Positions 1-13,943 of a stretch of DNA of 64,000 nt are shown here, piece by piece; within the stretch, counting starts at the first letter, position 1; each line of letters begins with the position of its first letter. The notes under the pieces are model-generated. The model searched no databases. It saw only the letters and a program-made list of their open reading frames with translations, and was not told the DNA's origin. The stretch is taken from NCBI RefSeq assembly GCF_039778605.1, contig NZ_CP156060.1:3500001-3564000 (forward strand), read 5' to 3'. The position numbers and the translations under genes were made by a program. This DNA comes from Flavobacterium sp. WV_118_3. Its GTDB lineage: Bacteria > Bacteroidota > Bacteroidia > Flavobacteriales > Flavobacteriaceae.

Positions 1-3000
1 GGCTTCACAAGGTTCTCCTGAAGAAAAAAAGCAAAAAATAGCTGAGGTTGCAACACAGATATTTGGTAAAGAATTTCCGTCGGAGTATATTGTTAATGAA
101 TATCTTGAGCCTTGTACTATCGCTAAAGAGGTAAACCCTTTCCAATTAACTAATGCAATACGGAATGGTATTGATCCTGAGGGAACAGAAGAAGATTTTA
201 TTAAGAATGATTTGGCTAATTGGTTGGAGACGAATATCGCGTTAAAGACTAATCACAATGTATTAGAAAGGGGAAAGCCGCTAAGTATCGACCAAATTGC
301 AGAAAAAATACATAATGAAACGTCTTTGTCGAAAGATGAGATACGAGGCATTCTTTATGATCTTTTAAAATGGGCAGAACGCATTAATGAGAGTAATAGA
401 TTAAAAGGAACTCGTAAATCCTTCCTTCCTTTTCGCTTTCATCAATTCATTTCTCAGACAGGATCGATTTCAGTAACACTCGAACCAAGAAATACACGAT
501 ATATAACCTCATCTGATGAGCCTTTCATTAAAATTGAAGGAAAGGAAAGAAAACTTTACCCGTTACTTTTTTCCAGATATTCCGGTTACGAATTTCTTTG
601 CGTTGAATTAGATATTCATAACAATGAACTTGTACCGGTTATACCAAATAAAGAATTTGTAAATAAAAAGAAAGCTGAAGTTAATCAGAAAAGTCCAGAT
701 ATAGAGGATTTTAAGTTTGGATATATCGTATTAGATGAGGGAGAAGATTTTTGGAATACAGATTTTCGTGATTTAGTGCCTGCAGAATGGTTTAACAAGC
801 GAGGAAGTGAACTTCTTCCTTATTATCAAATGCTGATGCCACATGAAATATATTTTAATAGTGACGGACAGTTTTCTTTCGAACCTAAGTTCCCTATAAA
901 AGGTTATTTCATTCCTGCGAAATTGAGAATTGACCCAACGGCACAAATTATTTATGAAGATAGTAAAACCAGTGATTTTACAAAGCTTTCCAGATTAGGT
1001 TCAGAAGGTAGAAGTACTGCAACTTCCGTAATTTCTTATGCTGTGATTAACAGCCTTGCAGAGCAAGGAGAAAAATTGCAGGATCAAAAACTATTAAGTT
1101 TTACAGATAATAGACAAGATGCTTCTTTGCAATCGGGGCACTTTAATGACTTCTATACAACAGTTCGTTTGAGATCAGCACTCTATAAAGCTTTAAAAGA
1201 AAATAAAAAACCTCTTGAAATACACGAAATAGCAGAGTCCCTATTCCGTAGTCTGGGATTAAAAGAAAAAGATTATGCGTTATATCCATCACGAGATGAG
1301 GATTTTCCTGATGAAAGAAATATTGAAGCACTTAAGGATTATCTGAAGTATAGAATATTTCAAGATTTGAAAAGAGGTTGGCGATATACATTGCCTAACT
1401 TGGAACAAGTAGCGCTTTTAGATATTGATTATAAAAATCTGAACAGACTTTCGGAATTAGACGATCGGTTTAAAAATCTTGGCTTTTTAAAAAATGCTGC
1501 TAAAGAGATCAGGAAAGAATTTTTAAGCAATGTTTTGGATTATTTTAGAACCAACTTTGCCCTTGATCATAAATTTTTTAAAGATATAGCCAATATTGAA
1601 GAGTTGATGAGAGACCGACTACATCCTGAATCTTTATGGTCTCTTGATTATAATGAAAAGTTGGATAAACCTGCTGAAATGGTTATAACCATTCCTTCTC
1701 CAAGGCCAAAAGGAAAATATGTAGTGTCAATGGGACTTAGATCTAATTTAGGTAAGTACATCAATCGTTGTGTGGTTGAAGCTGGTGATCAAAAAATGAA
1801 TAGAGATGCTTACAACGAGTTTATTCAAGAACTACTTACTCAACTTGAAAAGGCAAATCTTATCACAATCGAACAAGATAAGAAAAATACTGATTTACAG
1901 TATTATAAATTAAGATCGGATCAGTTATTATGGATAAAAGGAGATGGGAAAAGATTAAAGTTAGATCATACACGTTTCAATTTTCAAGCAGAACTACCTG
2001 AATTAATTCCTAATCTTTATTTCCAAAATTTGTATAAGACAGATTTTAATAAATTTAAAAAAGAACTAATAGCAAAAGAGCATACAGGACAAATTAGTGC
2101 AACACAAAGAATCGAAAGAGAGGATCAATTCCGAAAAGGAGATATTTCCACTCTGTATTGTTCGCCTACAATGGAATTAGGTATCGACATAGCTAATCTT
2201 AACATTGTACATATGCGGAATGTTCCTCCCAATGCGGCGAATTATGCTCAGAGAAGTGGACGTGCAGGAAGAGGAGGACAGACAGCTTTAGTTTTTACCT
2301 ACTGTTCTACTATGTCTCCTCATGATGTCAATTATTTTAAAAATTCCACGGAAATGGTTGCAGGTGTTGTACAGCCACCTAGAATTGATCTGATAAATGA
2401 AGAGCTTATAACAACTCATCTGAATGCCTTTCTATTGATGAGATTGGAGATTAGTGAACTAAAAACCTCGGTAGCAGATGTATTAGATTTATCTGATGAA
2501 AAAAACGTCTTCATAAAAAATGATATATTGGGGAGAATACAGCATCTGGTCTCTATCTCAAAAAATGATTTGTTTATTGAATTTGAAAAGATAGCTTATT
2601 CCTTATTACCTGAGCTTAATAAAACCAATTGGTTTACTCAATCATGGATCTTAGACAAGATTCAGAAATTTCCAATCCATTTTGCTTTATCATTTAAGCG
2701 TTGGATCCGGATGTTTCAAAATGCTTGTATGCTTAGAAATAAAGCTCAAGCAATTTTGGATAATCATACTTACAAAGCGGATAGTGTGGAAAGAAAAGAA
2801 GCTGCTAAACAAGAACGATTTGCTAGAAAGCAAATAGCTTTGTTGAAAAATGAAGAGCAACAGAGTTCTAGTAATTCTGAGTTTTATGTATTCCGTTATC
2901 TGGCAGCAGAAGGATTTTTACCAGGCTATAATTTTACACGTCTTCCGGTTCGGGCTGTATTAGGTAAAAGTTATCGCGATGATGTAGAAGTTCTTTCACG

Positions 3001-4372
3001 ACCTCGTGCTTTGGCTTTATCTGAATTTGGACCGGCAAATACTGTTTATCATTCAGGAAGTAAATTCAGAATCAACCGAATGATGGTTTCAGATCTTGAA
3101 AATGTTACAGAAGAGATACTTATATCCAATAAAACAGGCTATGCCTTTCTAAATGATGAAATTAAAATAGCTAATATTGATCCTATTACTAAAAGTCCAC
3201 TTTTAAATAGTGGCACGACTAATTATTCTAAAGTTTTAGAATTTTCGGAGTGTGAAGGTATTCCTTTACAAAAAATCTCCTGTATTGAAGAGGAAAGAAG
3301 TCGATCTGGTTATGACATTTTTTCGTATTTTAATTTTCCTCATGGAATTGAGAATACAGAGTCTGTTGTTTTAAAAAAAGGTGGTGAAAAATTACTTCAA
3401 TTATATTTTAGCAAAGCTGCTAATCTGATAAAAGTTAATAAAAAAGCAAAAAGATCACCAAATGACGGTTTCAAGATTGACCAAAGGAATGGTGTTTGGG
3501 TGCAGCAACGAAACTTAGCGAATAATGTAGAATTACAGCAAAATACAAGAGATGTTACGCTTTACACCAAAGATACCGCAGATGTTTTGTATATTCAGCC
3601 ATTAGGCAATATCGGAACCACACCTGATCAGGTTATTTCATTAAGCTATGCTTTAAAAAGGGGGATAGAAAAATTATTACTTGTAGAAGAAAGTGAAATG
3701 GCGGTAAGTGTAATTGGAGATAAAGAAAAGCCTAATATTCTTATTTATGAAGCATCAGAAGGTTCTCTTGGTATACTCTCACAATTAATTTCTGATCCTG
3801 TCAAAATGAGAGAATGGTTTAAAACTTCCTATGAGGTCATACATTATGATCCGGAAACTAGAACAGAAACGGAATTGGGAAAATCATTGCCAAAAGCCAC
3901 CTATCAGGACTTATTAAGCTATTATAATCAAATACATCATAAACAATTAGATAGGGGTAAGATTTATGGTGTTCTTGAAAGTCTGATGGACTGTGAGATC
4001 GATCCTGTACAAGGTAAAAATGATAGGGAAGAACAATATCGTTATTTACTAGATGCGTATGATAAAAAAAGTAGTACAGAGCTGATGCTGATAAAACACC
4101 TATATGAAAACGGATATGCACTTCCTGATAAAGCTCAATTTAATATGGAGGGCTATTATATTAATGTAGACTTTGTTTATAAAAACAATTCTGGCTTTAC
4201 ATTAATCTTCTGCGATGGTTCGGTACATGACTTAGAGGAAGTTAAAAAACGCGATCAAATGATTGATCAAATATTAAAAGAAGGAGCTTATGATGTTATA
4301 CGCTGGCATTATATGGAGCCTTTGGAGGAATTAATGGCAAGACGAAAAGACATTTTTAGAAAAATACGATAA
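1..4372 (+). CDS. DEAD/DEAH-type helicase with DUF1998 (DrmA/DrmB-like), 5' end outside window
   Basis: The reading frame is open from base 2, so the gene enters from the left and at least 1,456 residues are visible. The N-terminal ATPase half (Walker A, DEAD box) would lie upstream. Visible motifs are SFTDNRQDA (nt 1097-1123), TMELGIDIA (2168-2194) and QRSGRAGRGG (2249-2278), the motif V/VI region of a superfamily 2 helicase of the MrfA/YprA/DruE/DrmA kind. A DUF1998-like region follows (about 2,930-3,800). The last 70 residues contain VDF then CDGSVHD and RD, which resembles a Vsr/DUF559-like nuclease fold. It is first in an operon with the SNF2 helicase and methylase (44 bp gap). The layout looks like DrmA and DrmB fused. 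A TTG at 212 could be mistaken for a start, but the frame extends upstream. Helicase assignment is firm; DISARM membership is inferred. Confidence 0.85.
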   Translation, partial: ASQGSPEEKKQKIAEVATQIFGKEFPSEYIVNEYLEPCTIAKEVNPFQLTNAIRNGIDPEGTEEDFIKNDLANWLETNIALKTNHNVLERGKPLSIDQIAEKIHNETSLSKDEIRGILYDLLKWAERINESNRLKGTRKSFLPFRFHQFISQTGSISVTLEPRNTRYITSSDEPFIKIEGKERKLYPLLFSRYSGYEFLCVELDIHNNELVPVIPNKEFVNKKKAEVNQKSPDIEDFKFGYIVLDEGEDFWNTDFRDLVPAEWFNKRGSELLPYYQMLMPHEIYFNSDGQFSFEPKFPIKGYFIPAKLRIDPTAQIIYEDSKTSDFTKLSRLGSEGRSTATSVISYAVINSLAEQGEKLQDQKLLSFTDNRQDASLQSGHFNDFYTTVRLRSALYKALKENKKPLEIHEIAESLFRSLGLKEKDYALYPSRDEDFPDERNIEALKDYLKYRIFQDLKRGWRYTLPNLEQVALLDIDYKNLNRLSELDDRFKNLGFLKNAAKEIRKEFLSNVLDYFRTNFALDHKFFKDIANIEELMRDRLHPESLWSLDYNEKLDKPAEMVITIPSPRPKGKYVVSMGLRSNLGKYINRCVVEAGDQKMNRDAYNEFIQELLTQLEKANLITIEQDKKNTDLQYYKLRSDQLLWIKGDGKRLKLDHTRFNFQAELPELIPNLYFQNLYKTDFNKFKKELIAKEHTGQISATQRIEREDQFRKGDISTLYCSPTMELGIDIANLNIVHMRNVPPNAANYAQRSGRAGRGGQTALVFTYCSTMSPHDVNYFKNSTEMVAGVVQPPRIDLINEELITTHLNAFLLMRLEISELKTSVADVLDLSDEKNVFIKNDILGRIQHLVSISKNDLFIEFEKIAYSLLPELNKTNWFTQSWILDKIQKFPIHFALSFKRWIRMFQNACMLRNKAQAILDNHTYKADSVERKEAAKQERFARKQIALLKNEEQQSSSNSEFYVFRYLAAEGFLPGYNFTRLPVRAVLGKSYRDDVEVLSRPRALALSEFGPANTVYHSGSKFRINRMMVSDLENVTEEILISNKTGYAFLNDEIKIANIDPITKSPLLNSGTTNYSKVLEFSECEGIPLQKISCIEEERSRSGYDIFSYFNFPHGIENTESVVLKKGGEKLLQLYFSKAANLIKVNKKAKRSPNDGFKIDQRNGVWVQQRNLANNVELQQNTRDVTLYTKDTADVLYIQPLGNIGTTPDQVISLSYALKRGIEKLLLVEESEMAVSVIGDKEKPNILIYEASEGSLGILSQLISDPVKMREWFKTSYEVIHYDPETRTETELGKSLPKATYQDLLSYYNQIHHKQLDRGKIYGVLESLMDCEIDPVQGKNDREEQYRYLLDAYDKKSSTELMLIKHLYENGYALPDKAQFNMEGYYINVDFVYKNNSGFTLIFCDGSVHDLEEVKKRDQMIDQILKEGAYDVIRWHYMEPLEELMARRKDIFRKIR

Positions 4373-4416: not shown

Positions 4417-7254
4417 ATGAACAATAAATATACTCCGGGAAACTTAATACGATATAGAAATCGAGATTGGATGGTACTCCCATCTAATGAAGATCAAGTT
4501 ATTTTGGTAAAACCACTGGGTGGTTCCGATGAGGAAACTACCGGTGTTTTTATGCCTTTAGCCAAAGATATCGAAGCCATAGAGAAAGCGACCTTTAAAG
4601 AACCAACACCAACTCAAATCGGAAACTTTGAAACAGCGAAACTTTTGTATAATGCCTCCCGTCTTTCTTTAAGAAATGCCGCGGGTCCATTTAGAAGTAT
4701 GGGAAAACTTTCCTTCAGACCCAGATCATATCAGGTTGTTCCATTAGTAATGGCACTGAAGCAGGATGTTGCCAGACTCTTGGTTGCTGACGATGTTGGT
4801 ATTGGAAAAACGATAGAGGCTTTACTCATTATCAAGGAGCTGATTGAAAGAGGCGAGATCAAAAGATTTGCAGTGATTTGTCCACCTCATTTGTGCGAAC
4901 AATGGCAGCAGGAATTAAAAGACAAATTAGATATTGATGCGGAAATTATTCGCTCCAGTACAGCATCCCGTTTAGATCGTATAGTGTCTGATGATCACTC
5001 TGTATTTTATCATATTCCTTATCAGGTAATTTCAGTTGATTATATAAAAACAGATAAACGTAGAGGTATTTTCCTAAATGATTGTCCTGAATTAGTTGTT
5101 GTAGACGAAGCGCATACTTGTACCTTGCCAAAAGGAGCATCTTCAAAAAATCAACAACAGCGATATAACCTAGTTCACGATATTGCTTTAAATAAAAATA
5201 GACACTTGATATTACTTACCGCAACACCGCACAGTGGTAAGGATGAAGAGTTTCTTTCCCTTTTAGGCTTATTAAACCCAGTTTTCGAGCGATTAAATTT
5301 TGAGAGACTTGAACAGGCTGACAGACGAAAAATTGCACAGTATTTTATCCAGCGTAAGCGTGAAAATATCCGTAGATGGTTAAATGAAGATACGTTGTTT
5401 CCTGAAAGGGATTCTAAGGAAGTAGGTTTCACATTGTCAGAAGAAACTAAAGTCTTTTATAATGAACTAGTGACATTTGCACGAGGAATTTCAGATGTTG
5501 AGACAGACAATGAAAATACAAGACTTTTGCGTTCCTGGGCCGCAATTGCTTTGATTAAAGGAACCATGTCAAGTCCTGCTATGGCAAAAGAAATGTTGGA
5601 AAAACGCCAGGCAAAATTGACTGTAGAAGAAAAACTGACCGAAATTGGTACAGACGCTGTAGGAGATACATTGTTTGAAGAAAATGATTTTGGTGTGGAT
5701 TTTTCGAGATCTGATCTGTTAAATGCTGTTGATTATAAAACAGCAGAATTGGAGGGACTTACCAAATTATTAAAACGAGCGGAGTTTCTAAATGAAAATG
5801 AAGAAACAGATCTTAAGATAAAACATACCATTGATTTGATTCGAAAATGGATAAAAGAAGGCTTTCAGCCGATCATTTTCTGTCACTACATTGCTACAGC
5901 AAAATATGTGGAAGAGAAGCTAAAAGAAGCTCTTCCTAAAAACGTATTAGTACAGGCTATTACTTCTGAACTGGCGGATGAGCAGCGTAAAGAAGAAATT
6001 GAAAGAATGGGAGAACAGGAAAAAAGAGTTCTTGTGGCTACAGACTGTTTAAGTGAAGGAATCAATTTACAGGATCACTTTAATGCAGTTTTGCATTATG
6101 ACCTTCCTTGGAATCCGAACAGAATAGAACAACGAGAAGGTAGGGTTGATCGTTTCGGGCAAGCTTCAAAGGATATTAAAACATATATGCTTTATGGAGA
6201 AAATAATCCGATGGATAAGTTTATTCTGGAGGTACTGATTCGTAAAGTACGTGAAATTCAAAAAAGTATCGGAGTTACGATTCCTATAGGTGAAAATAAT
6301 AAATCGCTGATGGCAGAACTTACACAAAAGATTTTGAAAACTGTATCAGAAACAGAACAATTGACTCTTTTTGCCGAAGACAAAATAAAAATTGATAATG
6401 AATTGGAAATGGCTCGTAAAAAAGGAGAAAACTTGCGCTCTATTTTTGCTCAGGAATCTGTAGATGCCGAAACAATTAAAAAAGATCTACAAGAAGTAGA
6501 TGAAGCAATTGGTGATCCGAAAGTTGTGGAAAGTTTTACTGTATTTGCTTTACAATCTTTAGGAGCCTCAGTTACACCTGATTTTGAAGGGTATAAAATC
6601 CAGACAACGAATCTTCCTAAACATTTACAAGTTGCGTTGCTTTCAAAAACAGAACAACTAAAAGGAAAAACAGAAACTAAAATTGCTTTCATTTCACCTA
6701 CACCTAAAGGGTACCAATATATTGGAAGAAATCATCGCTTTGTGGAGCAGCTTTGTCATTACATAGTGAGTAATGCGTTTGAAGAAAAAGGTAATTCCTA
6801 TGGTTTAGCAAGAACTAGTGTGATGCAAACAAAAAGTGTTCAAAATAAGACAACTTTGGTAATGTTTAGAGTTAGAAATGTAGTTAAAGAAGTACGTTCT
6901 CGAAATGAATCTGTAGCAGAAGAAATGTATTTATGGGGGTACACAGAAAATACAAATGGTTTACAACCTATTGATTTTGAACAGGCACAGAAACTCATGA
7001 ATGAAGCTATTCCTTTGAGCAATATGCCACTTGAACAGCAGCAGCAACTTTTGAGAATAGAACTAAATTCGTTTGGAAATAAAAAAGATGCTTTTATAGA
7101 AATTGCGACAGAGCGTGCCGATAGATTAGTTGAGGCTCACGGACGATTTAAAACGTTAATTGGGGGGCGTAGTTATGAGAAATCAACGCCAGTGCTTCCG
7201 CCAGATGTAATGGGGGTTTATATCTTATTGCCAAAACCTAAAGACCTTTTTTAG
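4417..7254 (+). CDS. drmD: SNF2-family helicase, DrmD-like
   Basis: This 945-residue protein is an ATP-dependent DNA translocase of the SNF2 family. Visible motifs are Walker A GIGKT (residues 128-132), the DEAH box (230-233), TATPHSG (motif III) and the C-terminal QREGRVDRFGQ (about 571-581). The N-terminus (an opening PGNLIRYRNRDWMVLPS stretch, then LVKPLGGSDEE) matches what I recall of DISARM DrmD proteins, which are about this size. It lies 44 bp after the DUF1998 helicase and 3 bp before the methylase, so the three are almost certainly co-transcribed. In class 1 DISARM the DrmD helicase is encoded next to an N6-adenine methylase, as here. The SNF2 assignment is firm; the drmD symbol rests on remembered family features. 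Confidence 0.8.
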   Translation: MNNKYTPGNLIRYRNRDWMVLPSNEDQVILVKPLGGSDEETTGVFMPLAKDIEAIEKATFKEPTPTQIGNFETAKLLYNASRLSLRNAAGPFRSMGKLSFRPRSYQVVPLVMALKQDVARLLVADDVGIGKTIEALLIIKELIERGEIKRFAVICPPHLCEQWQQELKDKLDIDAEIIRSSTASRLDRIVSDDHSVFYHIPYQVISVDYIKTDKRRGIFLNDCPELVVVDEAHTCTLPKGASSKNQQQRYNLVHDIALNKNRHLILLTATPHSGKDEEFLSLLGLLNPVFERLNFERLEQADRRKIAQYFIQRKRENIRRWLNEDTLFPERDSKEVGFTLSEETKVFYNELVTFARGISDVETDNENTRLLRSWAAIALIKGTMSSPAMAKEMLEKRQAKLTVEEKLTEIGTDAVGDTLFEENDFGVDFSRSDLLNAVDYKTAELEGLTKLLKRAEFLNENEETDLKIKHTIDLIRKWIKEGFQPIIFCHYIATAKYVEEKLKEALPKNVLVQAITSELADEQRKEEIERMGEQEKRVLVATDCLSEGINLQDHFNAVLHYDLPWNPNRIEQREGRVDRFGQASKDIKTYMLYGENNPMDKFILEVLIRKVREIQKSIGVTIPIGENNKSLMAELTQKILKTVSETEQLTLFAEDKIKIDNELEMARKKGENLRSIFAQESVDAETIKKDLQEVDEAIGDPKVVESFTVFALQSLGASVTPDFEGYKIQTTNLPKHLQVALLSKTEQLKGKTETKIAFISPTPKGYQYIGRNHRFVEQLCHYIVSNAFEEKGNSYGLARTSVMQTKSVQNKTTLVMFRVRNVVKEVRSRNESVAEEMYLWGYTENTNGLQPIDFEQAQKLMNEAIPLSNMPLEQQQQLLRIELNSFGNKKDAFIEIATERADRLVEAHGRFKTLIGGRSYEKSTPVLPPDVMGVYILLPKPKDLF

Positions 7255-7257
7255 ACC

Positions 7258-10200
7258 ATGAAATTAACAACTATAAATATACAGGGGAATATTTTTACCA
7301 GCGAAATTCTTGAAAAAATTCGTCAGGATGATATTAGTTTTCAAAAACCGCAAGACTTTGGATTAAAACCTAGTGAACAAGTTCGAGATGAGATAAGTAA
7401 CGCCTGGAGCCTGCTCAATACACATTGGCAAATCTTTAAACAGAAACGAAGCTCTTTTTCAGAAATTGATAAAGGAATTTCGGAAACTCGCAAATATTGG
7501 ATTGTTCCGCTTCTCAATATTTTAGGCTATCAGGTTGCTCTTTCCAATGCTGAAATTGTTAATGGAAAATCTTATGCTATTTCCCACAGAGTTTCCAATA
7601 AAGATAATTTTCCTATACACATTGTGGGTAGCGAGCAGTCAATGGATAAAAAGGCAGAGAGCGGACCAAGACTGTCTCCTCATTCATTGGTGCAGGAATA
7701 TATTAATTCTACAGAATATATTTATGGCTTTGTAACCAATGGAAATCATTTCCGTGTATTGCGTGATGCGACACGACTTTCAAGACTAAGCTATCTGGAG
7801 TTCAATCTTGAGCAAATGATGGAAGAGGGACACTATGCCGAATTTGCCATTTTCTACCGTTTATTACACGCTTCCCGCATCAACGATAAAAAGGAAGAAG
7901 GGAAAGATGCTGTTCTTGAATATTATCATAACGAAGCTTTAGCTTCAGGATCACGTATTCGTGAGCGATTAAGTTTGGCTGTTGAGCATTCAATCCTAGC
8001 GTTAGCTAATGGACTACTTTCACAACAGGAAAATACTGAATTAAGAAGTGCTTTTGAAGAAGGAACGCTTTCCGTAAAAGATTACTACTTACATATCCTA
8101 AGATCTGTATATCGGATATTGTTTCTGTTGGTAATCGAAGAGCGTAATCTGATATACAAAGAAAATTTAACAGAAGAAGAAAAGAAGCTTAAAGATATTT
8201 ACTACCAGTATTACAGCATTCAACGTCTTACTTTTCTAGTGAACAAATCGGTTTATATTGATCCTAATAAAACTGATCTTTGGCAATCATTAATGACAAC
8301 ATTCAGGCTCTTTGAAGATAGACATTATGGCAAAGAATTGGGAATTGAAGCACTAAGCTCTGGGATTTTTAATCGGAACGCTATTGTAAGTATAGAATCT
8401 ACTAGATTGAGTAATGTAGATATATTGAATGTGTTTAAATCTTTAGTTACATTTGAAAATGAAAACAAACAGACCATTCGGGTGAACTATGCAGATTTAG
8501 ATGTAGAAGAATTTGGTTCGGTGTATGAAGGATTATTAGAGTTTGAGCCAGTAGTAGAAAACGTCGAATTTAGATTTAAACGGGGTGATGACCGATCTTC
8601 ATCTGGTTCGCACTATACTCCTGAAGAGTTGGTAAAGCCATTGATTATCCATTCTTTAGATTATGTGATTGCTGACAAATTAAAAGAAGCCGATCCCGAA
8701 AAGGCATTGTTGAGTATTACAGTATGTGATGTGGCTTGTGGAAGTGGTCATATCTTACTTTCCGCTGCCCGAAGAATTGGATTTGAACTCGCAAGAATAA
8801 GAAGTAATGAAGATCAGCCTACACCATCTGTTTTGCGTATGGCAATTCGTGATGTAATTAAAAACTGCATATACGGAGTCGACTTAAATCCCTTAGCTGT
8901 AGAGCTATGTAAAGTAGCTTTATGGCTAGAAGCTCATGATCCAGGTGAACCTTTAAATTTTCTAGACCATCATATTAAAAATGGTAATGCCATTGTAGGA
9001 TTGGCACATTATGAAGAACTGAAAAATGGTATTGCTAGTGAAGCTTTTAAGTTCTTGTCTGGCGATGAAAAAACAATAGCTTCTGCTTTTAAGAAACGTA
9101 ACGATGAAGAGCATAAATTGCAAATGAGTGAGCTTTTTGATCTGGAGGCAGTTGATAGTGATTTTGTAGATGTACAAAAGTCAGTAGATCAGTTTAGCCA
9201 AATGCCAGAGAAAACTTCTGAGCAAATTGAAAAGAAAGCTAAAGTTTATCACGATTTAACCAATGGCAAAAAATGGTTCAGACTCAAACAACTGGCAGAC
9301 TTACAAGTAGCACAGTTCTTCATTCCTAAAACAACAGAAAACATAGACAAGCTAACTACAAATAGCAAATATAAGACTTATTTGAATTCTGGCACTCAGA
9401 TCTTAGATCGTGGTGCAAGTATGACAATTGCAGAAAATAAAAAATTCTTCCATTGGTTTCTGGAATTTCCGGAGGTTTTTCAACAAGGAGGTTTTGATTG
9501 CATATTAGGTAATCCCCCATTTTTAGGAGGACAAAAGTTAAGTGGAAATTACGGGACTAATTTTCTTGAATATATAAAGTATACATATAGACCGATTGGA
9601 GCAGTAGATTTAGTAACCTATTTTTTCAGAAGAATTTTTGATGTAATTAAAATAAATGGATTTCAGGCTTTAATTTCTACAAATACTATTGCTCAAGGTT
9701 CTGCGCGTGAAGGAGGCTTAGATGTTATATGTTCAAATGAGGGAGTTATTAATCATGCTATTCGTTCGATGAAATGGCCGGGACAAGCTGCTGTTGAGGT
9801 TTCTTTAATTACTATCCATAAAGGCGAATGGAAAAATAAGTTTATTTTAGACAATAAATCGGTAGATAGAATTACATCTTATTTGGATGATTCCGAAGTG
9901 ATAGGAAAACCTATGCCTTTGTTGTCGAATAAAGGAAAGAGTTTTCAAGGGAGTATTGTGTTGGGGAAAGGTTTTATATTAACTCCAGAAGAAGCTTTAT
10001 CTTTGATTGATAAGGATCCTCGAAATAAAGAAGTTTTGTTTCCTTACTTGAATGGAGATGACCTTAATAACAGCCCCACTCAAGAACCTTCACGTTGGGT
10101 AATTAACTTTTTCGATTGGTCAGAAGAAAAAGCTCGAAGCTATCCAGACTGTTATGAGATTATTGAAAATCTCGTTAAACACGAAAGGATGAAATTAGAT

Positions 10201-11013
10201 GAGACGAAAAGTGCAACTAATAAAAACAGAAAAAAAAATTGGTGGAAATACGGCTCTGATGCTAAAAGTCTGTATAATGCCATATCTGAGTTAGACCAGG
10301 TAATGGTTATTGCCCAAGTAAGCAAAACTTTGGCATTTACTTTTGTGCCTACAAATCAAGTTATCTCTATGATGTGTATTGCACTTAGATTTGATGATTA
10401 TTTACATTTTGGTTTATTGCAGAACTCGATACATCAATCTTGGGTACAGAAATATGCATCAGCTTTAAAATCAGATACTCGTTATACCCCATCGGATGTA
10501 TTCGAAACTTTTCCACTACCAAAAATCATGGATAATGAAAAAGGCAATTTAGAAATATTAGCTAAATCATATTTTTCAAAACGAAAAGAGGTGATGGAGC
10601 GTATTAAAATTGGATTAACAAAAACATACAACCTTTTTCATGATAGAAATTTGCATGATGGTACAAATGCATGGCTAAAAAAACACCTCCAAAAATATAA
10701 TGAGATAGATTATTCCGAAATAAATGATATTATTAATCAAATGAGAAGTTTACAGGCTCGTTTGGATAATTTTGTATTATTAGCTTATGGATGGAGCGAT
10801 CTTAATTTACAGCACGATTTTTATAATCTTGAACATTTACCAGGAAATGATAACACACGTTTCACTATTCATCCCGAGGCTCGTAGAGAAGTATTAAAAC
10901 GCTTACTTCTACTGAATCATCAGCTGTACAATGAGGAAGAATCTAAAAGTTCTAACATTATGTTCAAGTCTAAAAAGAGAATTAATAAAAATAATTTCCC
11001 GAAGTTATTTTAA
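7258..11013 (+). CDS. Eco57I-type N6-adenine DNA methyltransferase (DrmMI-like) with exchangeable C-terminal specificity region
   Basis: This 1,251-residue protein has an N-terminal domain of about 450 residues. The methylase core follows: the AdoMet-binding motif VCDVACGSG (489-497) and the catalytic NPPF (752-755) of amino-methyltransferases. Residues from about 880 onwards form the target-recognition region, with YLNGDDLN, SRWVINFFDW and a VFETFPLP motif. Codons 881-965 lie in a 254-bp sequence (9900-10153) repeated in inverted orientation at 11876-12129. Residues 966-1251 are the variable part, and a homologous but diverged alternative lies on the opposite strand. Inversion would give a 1,253-residue hybrid. 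The gene starts 3 bp after drmD. Its role is probably modification of self DNA and choice of the recognition site for the helicase system. It could also be read as a type IIG-like enzyme, but no endonuclease motif was identified in it. Confidence 0.88.
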   Translation: MKLTTINIQGNIFTSEILEKIRQDDISFQKPQDFGLKPSEQVRDEISNAWSLLNTHWQIFKQKRSSFSEIDKGISETRKYWIVPLLNILGYQVALSNAEIVNGKSYAISHRVSNKDNFPIHIVGSEQSMDKKAESGPRLSPHSLVQEYINSTEYIYGFVTNGNHFRVLRDATRLSRLSYLEFNLEQMMEEGHYAEFAIFYRLLHASRINDKKEEGKDAVLEYYHNEALASGSRIRERLSLAVEHSILALANGLLSQQENTELRSAFEEGTLSVKDYYLHILRSVYRILFLLVIEERNLIYKENLTEEEKKLKDIYYQYYSIQRLTFLVNKSVYIDPNKTDLWQSLMTTFRLFEDRHYGKELGIEALSSGIFNRNAIVSIESTRLSNVDILNVFKSLVTFENENKQTIRVNYADLDVEEFGSVYEGLLEFEPVVENVEFRFKRGDDRSSSGSHYTPEELVKPLIIHSLDYVIADKLKEADPEKALLSITVCDVACGSGHILLSAARRIGFELARIRSNEDQPTPSVLRMAIRDVIKNCIYGVDLNPLAVELCKVALWLEAHDPGEPLNFLDHHIKNGNAIVGLAHYEELKNGIASEAFKFLSGDEKTIASAFKKRNDEEHKLQMSELFDLEAVDSDFVDVQKSVDQFSQMPEKTSEQIEKKAKVYHDLTNGKKWFRLKQLADLQVAQFFIPKTTENIDKLTTNSKYKTYLNSGTQILDRGASMTIAENKKFFHWFLEFPEVFQQGGFDCILGNPPFLGGQKLSGNYGTNFLEYIKYTYRPIGAVDLVTYFFRRIFDVIKINGFQALISTNTIAQGSAREGGLDVICSNEGVINHAIRSMKWPGQAAVEVSLITIHKGEWKNKFILDNKSVDRITSYLDDSEVIGKPMPLLSNKGKSFQGSIVLGKGFILTPEEALSLIDKDPRNKEVLFPYLNGDDLNNSPTQEPSRWVINFFDWSEEKARSYPDCYEIIENLVKHERMKLDETKSATNKNRKKNWWKYGSDAKSLYNAISELDQVMVIAQVSKTLAFTFVPTNQVISMMCIALRFDDYLHFGLLQNSIHQSWVQKYASALKSDTRYTPSDVFETFPLPKIMDNEKGNLEILAKSYFSKRKEVMERIKIGLTKTYNLFHDRNLHDGTNAWLKKHLQKYNEIDYSEINDIINQMRSLQARLDNFVLLAYGWSDLNLQHDFYNLEHLPGNDNTRFTIHPEARREVLKRLLLLNHQLYNEEESKSSNIMFKSKKRINKNNFPKLF
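9900..10153 (+). repeat. 254-bp inverted repeat, copy 1 (inside methylase gene)
   Basis: Bases 9900-10153 match the reverse complement of 11876-12129 at 253 of 254 positions when read by eye. The only difference is G at 10050 against the equivalent base at 11979, a silent Leu codon change (TTG/TTA). Identity stops abruptly at both ends: GAAGT then GATAGG on the left, and CTGTT then ATG on the right. Such near-identity beside diverged flanks indicates continuing exchange between the copies. Confidence 0.93.
10282..10311 (+). repeat. 30-bp secondary inverted repeat, copy 1
   Basis: An exact 30-base match to the reverse complement of 11736-11765 encodes the shared SELDQVMVI peptide in the middle of the otherwise diverged specificity regions. 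It is not in register with the main repeat (offset 18 bases), so it is a separate island of identity. Confidence 0.8.
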
Positions 11014-11025
11014 TCTTCGGGAAAT
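10994..11025. terminator. Bidirectional hairpin between the two convergent specificity cassettes
   Basis: An 11-bp perfect stem (10994-11004 with 11015-11025) has a 10-base loop. The stop codon of the methylase (11011-11013) and that of the opposing cassette (11012-11010) overlap by two bases inside the loop. The element is almost at the midpoint of the invertible segment, so it would serve as 3' end for whichever cassette is in the expressed position. Confidence 0.75.
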
Positions 11026-12116
11026 AACATAATATTTGAAGCTTTGTGAGTCGATTTCGATCTCTTTTTACTAATATTTTTATCAAAGGTATCGGATTTT
11101 GATTCCTCATTATATCGGTGAAGATTTAATATAAGTAATCGCTTAAGGATTTCTTTTCTCGCAGTTGGATGCATTGTAAATCTCACCCGATCATTCTTGG
11201 GCAGATAATCTATTTCATAGAAATCATGGGTAAGTACTATGTCTTTCCAGCCATATGAATTAATTATTGTTTGATCAAGCTGAATATGTAGATTTCTTAG
11301 ATTCTGTATATTGGAGACTATTTCTTCAATCTTCAAGCAACAATTAGCTTTTTCTAAATGTTTTTGTAAAAAAGTTAACTTAGAAATATTTGCGTTTTGA
11401 CTGATATTCTCAGAATGGAAAAGATTATATATCTTGGTGAGCCCTAATTGAGATTTCTTCATCAATTCTTTTCGGGAGTTATAGTATAATGCACCAATTT
11501 TTTCTAAACTTTCAGTTGATAATGGAAATGGGAAATTTTCGAAACAATCATTAGGTGAAAAATTAATAGTATTTGCTCCTAGTGTAGAACTATACTTCCA
11601 AGCCCAACTATCAAATATTGTTGATTGTAAAACAGAAAAAACATCTTTCTGTTCATAAGATAATACTACGATCTTATCCATAAATATATATGAAGAGTCA
11701 ACAAAAGTAGTTACAACATATTTTGAAACTCTAGTAATAACCATTACCTGGTCTAACTCAGATATAGTAGCGTAGAGTTCTTTTCTTGGTCTTAAAAATT
11801 GCCACCATTTTTCCTTACCTCCTTTATCTTTCTGAATTAGACGTTCTGGTTTTACTAAACGTTCAACTATATCAAAACAGTCTGGATAGCTTCGAGCTTT
11901 TTCTTCTGACCAATCGAAAAAGTTAATTACCCAACGTGAAGGTTCTTGAGTGGGGCTGTTATTAAGGTCATCTCCATTTAAGTAAGGAAACAAAACTTCT
12001 TTATTTCGAGGATCCTTATCAATCAAAGATAAAGCTTCTTCTGGAGTTAATATAAAACCTTTCCCCAACACAATACTCCCTTGAAAACTCTTTCCTTTAT
12101 TCGACAACAAAGGCAT
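11010..12116 (-). CDS. Silent alternative specificity (TRD) cassette of the Eco57I-type methylase
   Basis: This 368-residue frame lacks any methylase core. Its first 80 residues are identical to residues 886-965 of the neighbouring methylase, because they fall in the 254-bp inverted repeat. The rest is homologous but strongly diverged, with shared landmarks such as SELDQVMVI, NFPFP/TFPLP, LGLTK.YNLFH and HDFYEIDYLP. The ATG at 12116 corresponds to internal Met886 of the methylase, so it is probably not a real start. In-frame homology (GEIGKP) continues a few codons upstream of the repeat. No promoter is evident. The cassette would be expressed only after inversion joins it to the methylase N-terminal part. 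A pipeline would list it as a truncated methylase; I read it as a stored alternative C-terminus. Confidence 0.85.
   Translation of the reverse strand: MPLLSNKGKSFQGSIVLGKGFILTPEEALSLIDKDPRNKEVLFPYLNGDDLNNSPTQEPSRWVINFFDWSEEKARSYPDCFDIVERLVKPERLIQKDKGGKEKWWQFLRPRKELYATISELDQVMVITRVSKYVVTTFVDSSYIFMDKIVVLSYEQKDVFSVLQSTIFDSWAWKYSSTLGANTINFSPNDCFENFPFPLSTESLEKIGALYYNSRKELMKKSQLGLTKIYNLFHSENISQNANISKLTFLQKHLEKANCCLKIEEIVSNIQNLRNLHIQLDQTIINSYGWKDIVLTHDFYEIDYLPKNDRVRFTMHPTARKEILKRLLILNLHRYNEESKSDTFDKNISKKRSKSTHKASNIMLFPED
11736..11765 (-). repeat. 30-bp secondary inverted repeat, copy 2
   Basis: This is the reverse complement of 10282-10311, a short identical island within the diverged part of the silent cassette. 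Confidence 0.8.
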
Positions 12117-12129
12117 AGGTTTTCCTATC
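11876..12129 (-). repeat. 254-bp inverted repeat, copy 2 (start of silent cassette)
   Basis: This is the partner of 9900-10153 in opposite orientation with one silent mismatch. Together the two copies bracket 2,230 bp of DNA whose inversion would exchange the methylase C-termini in frame. Confidence 0.93.
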
Positions 12130-12190: not shown

Positions 12191-12225
12191 ATGAATAAAT
12201 TCACTTCACAAATACTTCAGTAACT

Positions 12226-13383
12226 ATGAGCATACAAATAAGCTATCGCTTTGTAATAAAAAAAGAAAAGAACAAACAGGGATTATATCCAATTTATTTG
12301 AGAGCATTTTTAAAAGGAAAGAAAATAGAAACCGCCACACCGGTAACGATTCCTTTGCGTGATTGGTCATTGAGAAATCAACGGGTGAAATCTCAAAATA
12401 ATTACCATGAAAGATACAACATGATACTGGATGCAATAGATAAAAAATCCATCAAGTTATTGGTGAATAATTTTTTAAATGAAGAATACCCTCTGTCATT
12501 AGTGCAGTTCAAAGACCGTTTACTAGCCTTAAATCATTATTCAGTAGAACAAAGTTTTACAGATTATATTCTTGGTTATTTAGAAGAAAATAAAACAAAA
12601 TTCAAGACAGAAACCTGGTTCGGGTACAAATCTCAGATTTCCAAGATGCTTAAATTCAAGAAAGAAATACTTTTTTCAGATATTAATGAAAGATTTATAA
12701 ATGATTACAGACAATATATGTTAAATACTTTAAGCAATAATGAAAATACAGCAAGTAAAAGTCTGCGAGTCCTCCGAACTTTTGTCAATATTTCTATGCG
12801 ATTTGGTTATATAAAGACGAACCCATTTCAATATATTTCGATAAAAAAAGTCGATGGAAAAAGGGATTTTCTCTCAATTGAAGAGTTAAATAAACTTACT
12901 GATTATTATTCAAAAGATAATTTTGCAAAATTGATAGAGAAAGATATTCTTGGATATTTTTTATTTGCTTGTTATACCGGACTTCGGTATTCTGATTTAA
13001 AAACCTTCTCAACTGATTTAATAGTTGATAATTCTATACGCCTTCGTATGCATAAAACAGGATGTTTGGTAAATATTCCTCTAAGTAAAAAAGCAAAAAT
13101 GTTTCTTCCTAATATAACTTTTGAAGGAAGTAGTGTATTTAGGGTGTATTGTAATAAGGTGACTAATAAAGAACTAAAAAAAATAGGTGCAGATCTGGGA
13201 CTCAAAAAAAAGCTTACTTGTCATGTAGCTAGACATACATTTGCTACTGCATCAATATCACTGGGTATTCCGATAGAAGTAGTGAGTAAACTTTTAGGAC
13301 ATACAAGTATCCGAACGACACAAGTTTACGCAAAAATTGTGGACACAGTTAAAATAAAAGAAATGCAGAAATGGGATAATTAA
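12226..13383 (+). CDS. Tyrosine site-specific recombinase
   Basis: This 385-residue recombinase has the typical Bacteroidota layout: an N-terminal arm-binding-like part, a SAM-like core-binding domain (about 105-205) and a C-terminal catalytic domain. The full catalytic set is visible: R254 (TGLR), a likely Lys in HKTG, H333 and R336 (HVARH), H359 (LGH) and the nucleophile Y368. It starts 97 bp beyond the outer end of the 254-bp repeat. Two roles are possible and not exclusive: the invertase that flips the methylase specificity segment, as do the recombinases next to invertible hsdS loci in Bacteroides, or the integrase that placed the island at the nearby tRNA-Leu. Catalytic competence is well supported; the substrate is inferred. 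Confidence 0.9.
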   Translation: MSIQISYRFVIKKEKNKQGLYPIYLRAFLKGKKIETATPVTIPLRDWSLRNQRVKSQNNYHERYNMILDAIDKKSIKLLVNNFLNEEYPLSLVQFKDRLLALNHYSVEQSFTDYILGYLEENKTKFKTETWFGYKSQISKMLKFKKEILFSDINERFINDYRQYMLNTLSNNENTASKSLRVLRTFVNISMRFGYIKTNPFQYISIKKVDGKRDFLSIEELNKLTDYYSKDNFAKLIEKDILGYFLFACYTGLRYSDLKTFSTDLIVDNSIRLRMHKTGCLVNIPLSKKAKMFLPNITFEGSSVFRVYCNKVTNKELKKIGADLGLKKKLTCHVARHTFATASISLGIPIEVVSKLLGHTSIRTTQVYAKIVDTVKIKEMQKWDN

Positions 13384-13818
13384 AGTATTACACAAAATTG
13401 AAACAGGAACACTGTGTAAAATACATAGAGTTCTTGTTTTTGTGATGTTTGATATTAAATAAAATGGACTATTTTAAGGAAAAGAAAATGCTTCAACCTG
13501 AAAATCTTAAAAATATCGTCGTTTTCCTAAAGAAAATAACCTTGTTGATCATTAGAGGGTAAAAATGATTTTTTTGAATTTATTTTTGCTTGTAAATCAG
13601 TTTGTTGTAGTGGTTCATGTCCTGTCAACCAACATGCTGGGAAACCAATGTATAATTGATTGAAAAACCTGATTTTCAGGTTGTAATGTGCTGATGTTTA
13701 GATGTTTGTGTTTTATTGGGTTGGTTCAATAGGGTAAAAATGTAATTTTGAAGAAAACGAGAATTTGAAATCTAGTTTATTTTGTAAATAATTGATATCC
13801 AAAATTTTATAAAATAAA
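13384..13818. other. Island edge, no gene found
   Basis: About 435 bp of A+T-rich sequence with no convincing reading frame. It holds a short hairpin at 13666-13682 (AACCTGA/TCAGGTT) and two copies of GGGTAAAAATG (near 13557 and 13731). It separates the recombinase from the tRNA terminator. Confidence 0.5.
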
Positions 13819-13856
13819 AAATCGGAAAAATATTCAATTAAATATCTTTCCGATTT
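13819..13856 (-). terminator. Terminator of the tRNA-Leu(UAA) gene
   Basis: On the minus strand a 16-bp stem with one imperfect pair (13819-13834 with 13841-13856) starts just after the tRNA 3' end and is followed by a T-rich run. Confidence 0.75.
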
Positions 13857-13857
13857 G

Positions 13858-13943
13858 TACTCAAGGCGGGACTTGAACCCGCACGAACATTACTGTTCAC
13901 TGGATTTTAAGTCCAGCGTGTCTACCAATTCCACCACTCGAGC
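13858..13943 (-). tRNA. tRNA-Leu (anticodon UAA)
   Basis: The minus strand folds as an 86-nt tRNA: 7-bp acceptor (GCTCGAG with CTTGAGT), the D-arm typical of Leu, an anticodon loop with TAA, a long variable arm and a standard T-loop GTTCAAGTC. CCA is not encoded. Its 3' end faces the defence island, the usual orientation for integration at a tRNA 3' end. Confidence 0.95.

Follow-up and report, generated by a model that had tools for sequence, protein, structure and literature searches.

The methylase gene of a helicase-containing operon in Flavobacterium sp. WV_118_3 ends opposite a diverged version of its own 3´ part, which raises the question of whether the recognition domain (TRD) of this enzyme is exchanged by DNA inversion and how many enzymes could result. 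The stretch analyzed, 64,000 nt of contig NZ_CP156060.1 (the window), begins within a gene for a YprA-family helicase of 1715 aa in all (1-4372, + strand; a further 776 nt of the gene lie to the left of the window; L003:9225-14372). This gene is followed by those for a 945 aa RapA/BrxHII/DrmD/DpdE-like SNF2 helicase (4417-7254, +) and a 1251 aa MmeI/PglX/DrmMI-like, ArmB-like adenine methylase (7258-11013, +), whose constant part spans 7258-9903 (+). The second helicase matched RapA (2.9e-39) and, among the PADLOC models, BrxHI|BrxHII (1.2e-62), DpdE (4.9e-161), and DrmD (5.1e-87). The C-terminus of the YprA-family protein gave no match at E 0.001 with Foldseek alone, and a second look found DUF1998 and endonuclease matches.

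The initial annotation described the system as DISARM-like; the relationship to DISARM holds, but the operon is not DISARM itself. DISARM class 1 requires separate drmA and drmB genes and the drmC phospholipase-D nuclease, whereas here the DUF1998 region is fused to the helicase. No DrmB or DrmC was present among the PADLOC matches listed for 11 proteins (best 25 per list), and Pfam found no PLD domain in the 14 proteins scanned. With two helicases and an MmeI/PglX-like methylase, the operon also does not correspond to a Type I restriction-modification locus (hsdR, hsdM, hsdS). A better fit is ARMADA Type I, a DISARM relative. As described in the available text of the report on that system (PMC12458937), a YprA-like helicase with a fused DUF1998 part and a C-terminal nuclease is followed by a BrxHII/RapA-like helicase and then a PglX-like methylase. 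The two helicases, the DUF1998 fusion, and the methylase are present here in the same order, and the YprA-family protein may also carry a C-terminal nuclease of Vsr type. Beyond what that text describes, the window operon has a second TRD cassette in facing orientation and a recombinase of its own.

The earlier claims about the arms and the facing gene part were borne out. An inverted repeat of 254 bp has its left arm at 9900-10153 (+) and its right arm at 11876-12129 (-), with a single mismatch (10050 versus 11979); identity of 253/254 rules out a chance origin. The second methylase C-terminal part is a 368 aa ORF on the other strand (12116-11010, -). Within the arms lies a short core, S1, with a left copy at 9904-9917 (+), codons 883-887, where the TRD starts, and a right copy at 12112-12125 (-). 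Across the 3.85-Mb genome the exact core has two copies, one on each strand, and a role for S1 at other loci was rejected on this genome-wide search for exact copies. We also found a second inverted pair, absent from the initial annotation, of 30 identical bases (10282-10311 and 11736-11765). It contains the site S2, at 10282-10306 (+), codons 1009-1017, and at 11741-11765 (-). Alignment to MmeI places S2 at the boundary between the TRD-N and TRD-C sub-domains, and both S1 and S2 coincide with MmeI domain borders. The two sites divide the expressed cassette A into a TRD-N module (9918-10281, +) and a TRD-C plus C-terminal helical module (10307-11013, +), and the silent cassette B into the corresponding TRD-N (11766-12111, -) and TRD-C plus C-terminal (11010-11740, -) modules. 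No promoter-like or terminator-like pattern was seen at the cassette junction.

These features suggest that the TRD of the methylase consists of exchangeable modules, with one TRD-N (S1 to S2) and one TRD-C plus C-terminal module (after S2) in each of the expressed gene and the silent facing cassette. A recombinase would swap the whole TRD by inverting the 2,222 bp between the S1 copies, or the TRD-C part only by inverting the 1,484 bp between the S2 copies. The codon frame of S1 is shared by the two cassettes, as is that of S2, so neither inversion would disrupt the reading frame. In silico inversion at the arms reproduced the previously noted change from 1,251 to 1,253 residues, and combining S1 and S2 inversions predicts four in-frame methylases of 1251, 1253, 1259, and 1245 aa. 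Two TRD-N by two TRD-C modules would thus give four methylases and probably four recognition sequences. In place of a flip between two states, the locus would be a shuffler of TRD sub-domains with two sites and four states. In a rough, distant alignment that serves as a hint only, forms A and B differ at all six TRD-C positions equivalent to MmeI 751, 773, 774, 806, 808, and 810 and are the same at the equivalents of 642 and 645. Because the two TRD-N modules in the window are nearly identical across the 254-bp arm, they may differ little in specificity. Each form would methylate a different motif, such that sibling cells would differ in methylation and protection and the population would gain varied protection.

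The sites are strongly conserved in relatives. Facing cassettes were found at six further loci (L004, L005, L007, L010, L011, and L056), and because the layout is common to seven loci, an assembly artefact is ruled out. S1 and S2 are invariant in all 14 cassettes of these loci. Among 93 columns with an invariant amino acid in 12 cassettes (L010 was left out of the count owing to frameshifts), the codon is also invariant in 10/10 at the S1/S2 sites versus 5/83 elsewhere. In single-TRD homologues, the amino acids at the sites differ in 18/18 aligned.

Related genomes also carry the other arrangements, the check proposed with the initial annotation, and these recombinant forms support recognition-domain switching by inversion. 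All four module combinations are present in one lineage (P0254, P0255, P0257, and P0016), in which the three full-length members have near-identical first 880 residues, and three combinations were found in Chryseobacterium koreense (P0244, P0245, and P0003). A single cassette, identical at 374/374 residues, occupies opposite positions in Elizabethkingia miricola (P0070) and E. occulta (P0252). Between L010 and L011 the TRD-N halves are exchanged, one of the four half comparisons being 334/357 rather than identical. The comparison list held 26 mosaic pairs; Myroides P0249 and P0250, considered as a switched pair, turned out to have the same form. The locus thus has the features of a site-specific inversion switch, namely inverted sites, a locus recombinase, and both arrangements in nature, the arrangements being drawn from relatives.

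The recombinase, which the initial annotation correctly placed just outside the arms, is a 385 aa tyrosine recombinase with arm-binding, SAM-like, and catalytic domains (12226-13383, +), its ORF beginning after 96 nt beyond the arm. Just before its start is a conserved non-coding block, ACTTCACAAATACTTCA (12203-12219, +), of 17 consecutive invariant columns in the 6/6 loci aligned; a similar block precedes the Mucilaginibacter roseus gene. A recombinase gene adjoins the facing cassettes at all seven loci whose sequence covers that side and none of the 16 single-TRD homologue loci. Among the 120 best-listed cassette clusters, 23 were paired with a listed recombinase cluster on contigs of exactly equal size. 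Judging from this linkage, the recombinase probably catalyzes the inversion. We infer that the same enzyme acts at both S1 and S2, which is unproven because the two sites have no visible common motif (a by-eye comparison found none that was convincing).

An unlikely alternative is that homologous recombination through RecA, gene conversion, or some other enzyme recombines the cassettes and that the neighboring recombinase is the integrase of a mobile defense island. The window arms are long and alike enough for homologous recombination, but arm identity drops to 68% in L005 and 78% in L007, where 18 and 22 bases, respectively, are identical at S1, and exchanges at S2 occurred with about 25-40 identical bases. 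An island integrase would be in keeping with the arm-binding domain, which resembles that of mobile-element integrases, with a tRNA-Leu at 13857-13943, and with direct repeats of 356 bp, 84% alike, that bracket the whole unit. Against this, the recombinase tracks the facing cassette, being missing from the single-TRD loci. In L005 another integrase, far from the cassettes, lies close to a tRNA-Ser, and the examined stretches of L007, L010, and L011 yielded no tRNA. The silent cassette could instead encode a protein expressed in its own right, for example a decoy or regulator, and donate no modules, given that its ORF opens with an in-frame ATG and that such ORFs are entered as proteins in databases. 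This is very improbable, as the ATG belongs to the S1 core and the sets of four and three combinations show exchange between both positions. Least probable is a frozen relic in strain WV_118_3, with a second cassette that has stopped moving. A single assembly gives one orientation for this strain, but neither S1 nor S2 is damaged in either copy, the full recombinase gene encodes the usual catalytic motifs, and all four joins are in frame. The best explanation, and a very likely one, is a modular-TRD inversion shuffler run by the adjacent recombinase in an ARMADA Type I-like anti-phage operon.

The principle is already known from inverting Type I hsdS loci. As presented in the parts of two reports drawn on here (PMC7394358, PMC4948785), inverted repeats there likewise lie ahead of the first TRD and between the two TRDs, a recombinase is encoded at the locus, and four proteins arise by combining modules two by two. 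Those loci shuffle two complete TRDs of a separate specificity subunit, whereas the units shuffled at the window locus would be the two sub-domains that make up a single MmeI-type TRD within the methylase of a helicase-based defense system. Of the three inversions in the pneumococcal precedent, PsrA accounts for just one (PMC4948785), which speaks against taking one enzyme for both sites as given. The system of Lactobacillus rhamnosus is a BREX operon in which PglX is accompanied by an incomplete second copy of itself as well as an integrase; the available text mentions no two-site sub-domain shuffling (PMC7513527). MmeI, of Type IIL, is a stand-alone restriction-modification enzyme (structure 5hr4), for which the text available mentions neither facing cassettes nor a recombinase (PMC4833311). 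The accessible main text on ARMADA (Bell et al., 2025; PMC12458937) never uses inversion, invert, or phase, and mentions recombinases in connection with mobile elements, cloning, and fragments. In agreement with the initial annotation, which knew of none for a DISARM-type operon, we found no description of module inversion in ARMADA or DISARM in the literature searched. It is likely that a dedicated recombinase, acting on two unlike coding-sequence sites, independently shuffles TRD-N and TRD-C of a single MmeI-type domain and thereby provides an ARMADA (DISARM-related) helicase-nuclease system with four specificities.

If so, multi-gene DISARM-family defense, and not classical restriction-modification alone, could be diversified within a clone, and such systems would have to withstand a host methylome that is rewritten again and again. 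If, as is presumed, the chromosome is spared only through the system's own methylation, the question is how cells survive a change of specificity. Comparison of locked forms would put the part that the ARMADA methylase plays in recognition to a direct test, and the natural cut-and-rejoin points of an MmeI-type recognition domain offer a rule for designing enzymes with new specificities.

Proteins of cassette size that are related to these are widespread, with 627 at E 1e-5 or better. The genus, family, order, and phylum searches overlap and count the window's own genome where it belongs. A few of the best 120 of the 627 carry methylase domains and therefore not all are free cassettes; organism names among the 120 include Bacteroides fragilis, Elizabethkingia, Pedobacter, Mucilaginibacter, and Dysgonomonas. 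Cassette matches were present in 103 plasmid records, all below 60% identity, whereas the recombinase had no match among plasmid records at E 1e-60. In IMG/VR, one contig carries part of the switch (L102/L104) and there is one distant match (L103).

The initial annotation described a 254-bp inverted repeat (253/254) shared by the 3´ part of the methylase gene and a facing, diverged copy on the other strand, an inversion that would preserve the reading frame and a tyrosine recombinase gene outside the arm. All three features were recovered: the arms (9900-10153 and 11876-12129) differ at 1 of 254 positions, inversion in silico converts the 1251 aa methylase into one of 1253 aa, and the recombinase gene starts at 12226. 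The encoded recombinase has arm-binding, SAM-like and catalytic domains and the usual catalytic motifs. The genome is a single 3.85 Mb contig, of which positions 3,500,001-3,564,000 were analyzed. A 17-bp non-coding block immediately 5´ of the recombinase start (12203-12219) is invariant in six loci, with a near match in Mucilaginibacter roseus, and may serve in regulation or as an arm site.

We also detected a second, weaker inverted pair (10282-10346/11701-11765) containing 30 identical bases. The proposed inversion sites are S1 (GGAAAACCTATGCC; 9904-9917/12112-12125), at the start of the target-recognition domain (TRD), and S2 (ATATCTGAGTTAGACCAGGTAATGG; 10282-10306/11741-11765), at the boundary between TRD-N and TRD-C. 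Both copies of each site are present (14/14 for S1 and for S2) in the seven facing-cassette loci where both exact sites were found (the window, L004, L005, L007, L010, L011 and L056). Two further facing-cassette loci are L009, which has an S2 variant, the same in both copies, and no exact S1, and L102, whose available part includes a single copy each of S1 and S2. Across 12 cassettes (L010 excluded for frameshifts; Met and Trp set aside), 93 columns show a single amino acid; the codon is also invariant in 10/10 such columns at S1/S2 versus 5/83 elsewhere (Fisher p = 3.7e-10, in a test that was not blind, the sites being known beforehand). At the S2 peptide, the amino acids differ in all 18 single-TRD homologues aligned there. 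The arms are only 68% identical in L005 and 78% in L007, yet 18 and 22 bases, respectively, are identical at S1, which points to site-specific exchange. The base preceding the S1 core is A, G or T depending on the genome and is equal in both copies within each genome. The facing TRD cassettes of L009 (12764-14824) lie on a Prevotellaceae contig whose end falls within the second cassette. Bacteroides fragilis has a cassette-size protein of this kind (54 member sequences), in which the S2 peptide is the variant ISKVDQVM. Its second half and the second half of a full-length methylase are 0.98 alike, and their first halves differ (P0114 and P0355).

The search of related genomes for the other arrangement, proposed in the initial annotation, revealed natural recombinants. 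The database proteins P0254, P0255 and P0257 have their first 880 residues in common (ratio 0.999-1.0) and combine TRD-N a with TRD-C x, b with x, and b with y, respectively; together with P0016, a protein of cassette size (339 aa) that pairs a with y, they comprise all four TRD-N x TRD-C combinations. In Chryseobacterium koreense, P0244 and P0245 are identical over residues 1-882, and P0003 combines the exact TRD-N of P0245 and the exact TRD-C part of P0244. Given the near-equal sizes of their contigs (2,992,377, 2,992,381 and 2,992,385 bases for P0244, P0245 and P0003, respectively), we infer that the three come from one resequenced strain or from sister isolates. Between Chryseobacterium sp. 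E1 (L010) and C. oranimense (L011), which are identical at 2613/2636 positions upstream, the TRD-N halves have swapped places (400/400 and 334/357), whereas the TRD-C halves remain in place (745/745 and 707/707). All 374 residues of the Elizabethkingia miricola cassette P0070 recur unchanged at the C-terminus of P0252, the E. occulta methylase, an S1-type event. In the same way P0015, on a 2,148-bp contig, is identical to the C-terminus of the methylase of F. endophyticum (347/347). When the 120 proteins having both landmarks, out of 360, were compared half by half (7,140 pairs), 26 pairs had one half at least 0.97 alike and the other clearly different, and three had both halves alike. Sibling cells may differ in protection.

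The recombinase lies beyond the second S1 in all seven facing-cassette loci with sequence available there (the window, L005, L007, L010, L011, L056 and L102), though in L010 frameshifts disrupt its gene. Of the single-TRD loci, 16 could be followed for 3 kb or more downstream, and neither a facing TRD nor the same recombinase was found in any of them. Uncounted were L004 and L009 (ending too early), L071 and L095 (downstream too short), L058, L061, L073 and L074 (TRD queries unmatched) and L006 (ending at S1). In the protein database, 23 of the 120 listed cassette clusters are on a contig exactly equal in size to that of one of the 120 listed recombinase clusters; for contigs of at least 10 kb the count is 20/64, with 0.04 expected from shifted lengths. 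In M. roseus, the methylase contig stops 6 nt short of the S1 core position, another contig begins 105 nt 5´ of the recombinase start, and a partial cassette protein (P0028) is on a 2,114-bp contig, the pattern expected when a segment causes assemblies to break on both of its sides. The recombinase is tied to S1/S2 by linkage and may act on both of these unlike sites. A second, convergent tyrosine recombinase, ~30% identical to the first, is encoded directly downstream in L005 (16274-17413) and L102 (3224-4363), followed in L005 by tRNA-Ser.

Inverting Type I hsdS (PMC7394358, PMC4948785) follows the four-allele logic proposed for the window locus, and a partial pglX occurs together with an integrase in Lactobacillus rhamnosus (PMC7513527). 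Searches of open-access PMC texts yielded, among the papers listed, no title or abstract opening that describes an invertible ARMADA or DISARM methylase. Methylase matches (E 1e-100 or better, counted per genome in overlapping samples that include the query genomes) were present in 4/299 genomes of the genus, 5/395 of the order and 24/395 of the phylum of the window lineage, in 3/173 of the genus and 2/178 of the family for C. oranimense, and in 5/251 of the family for M. roseus. Most methylase-matching loci examined have a single TRD, and a methylase match alone does not denote a switch.

The operon encodes, in order, a YprA/DruE-like helicase (1715 aa, not 1386), a RapA/BrxHII-like helicase and a PglX/DrmMI-like methylase. 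Its gene content and order match ARMADA Type I (PMC12458937), a relative of DISARM. The operon does not fit DISARM itself: the DUF1998 part is fused to the helicase, neither DrmB nor DrmC is among the PADLOC rows listed (at most 25 per list) for 11 proteins, and Pfam gave no PLD domain in 14 scanned proteins. The C-terminus of the YprA protein is likely to be a Vsr-like nuclease. The operon and switch together are bracketed by 356-bp direct repeats with 84% identity (13466-13821 and, ~1.4-1.8 kb left of the window in the same genome, L003:8207-8562), which may be a trace of the way in which the unit inserted. A 133 aa ORF adjoining the operon on the left (L003:7777-8178, + strand) matches part of a resolvase N-terminal domain. 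Seven longer related methylases (1489-1513 aa; P0270, P0271, P0280, P0299, P0305, P0327 and P0332) have an added PF04255 domain.
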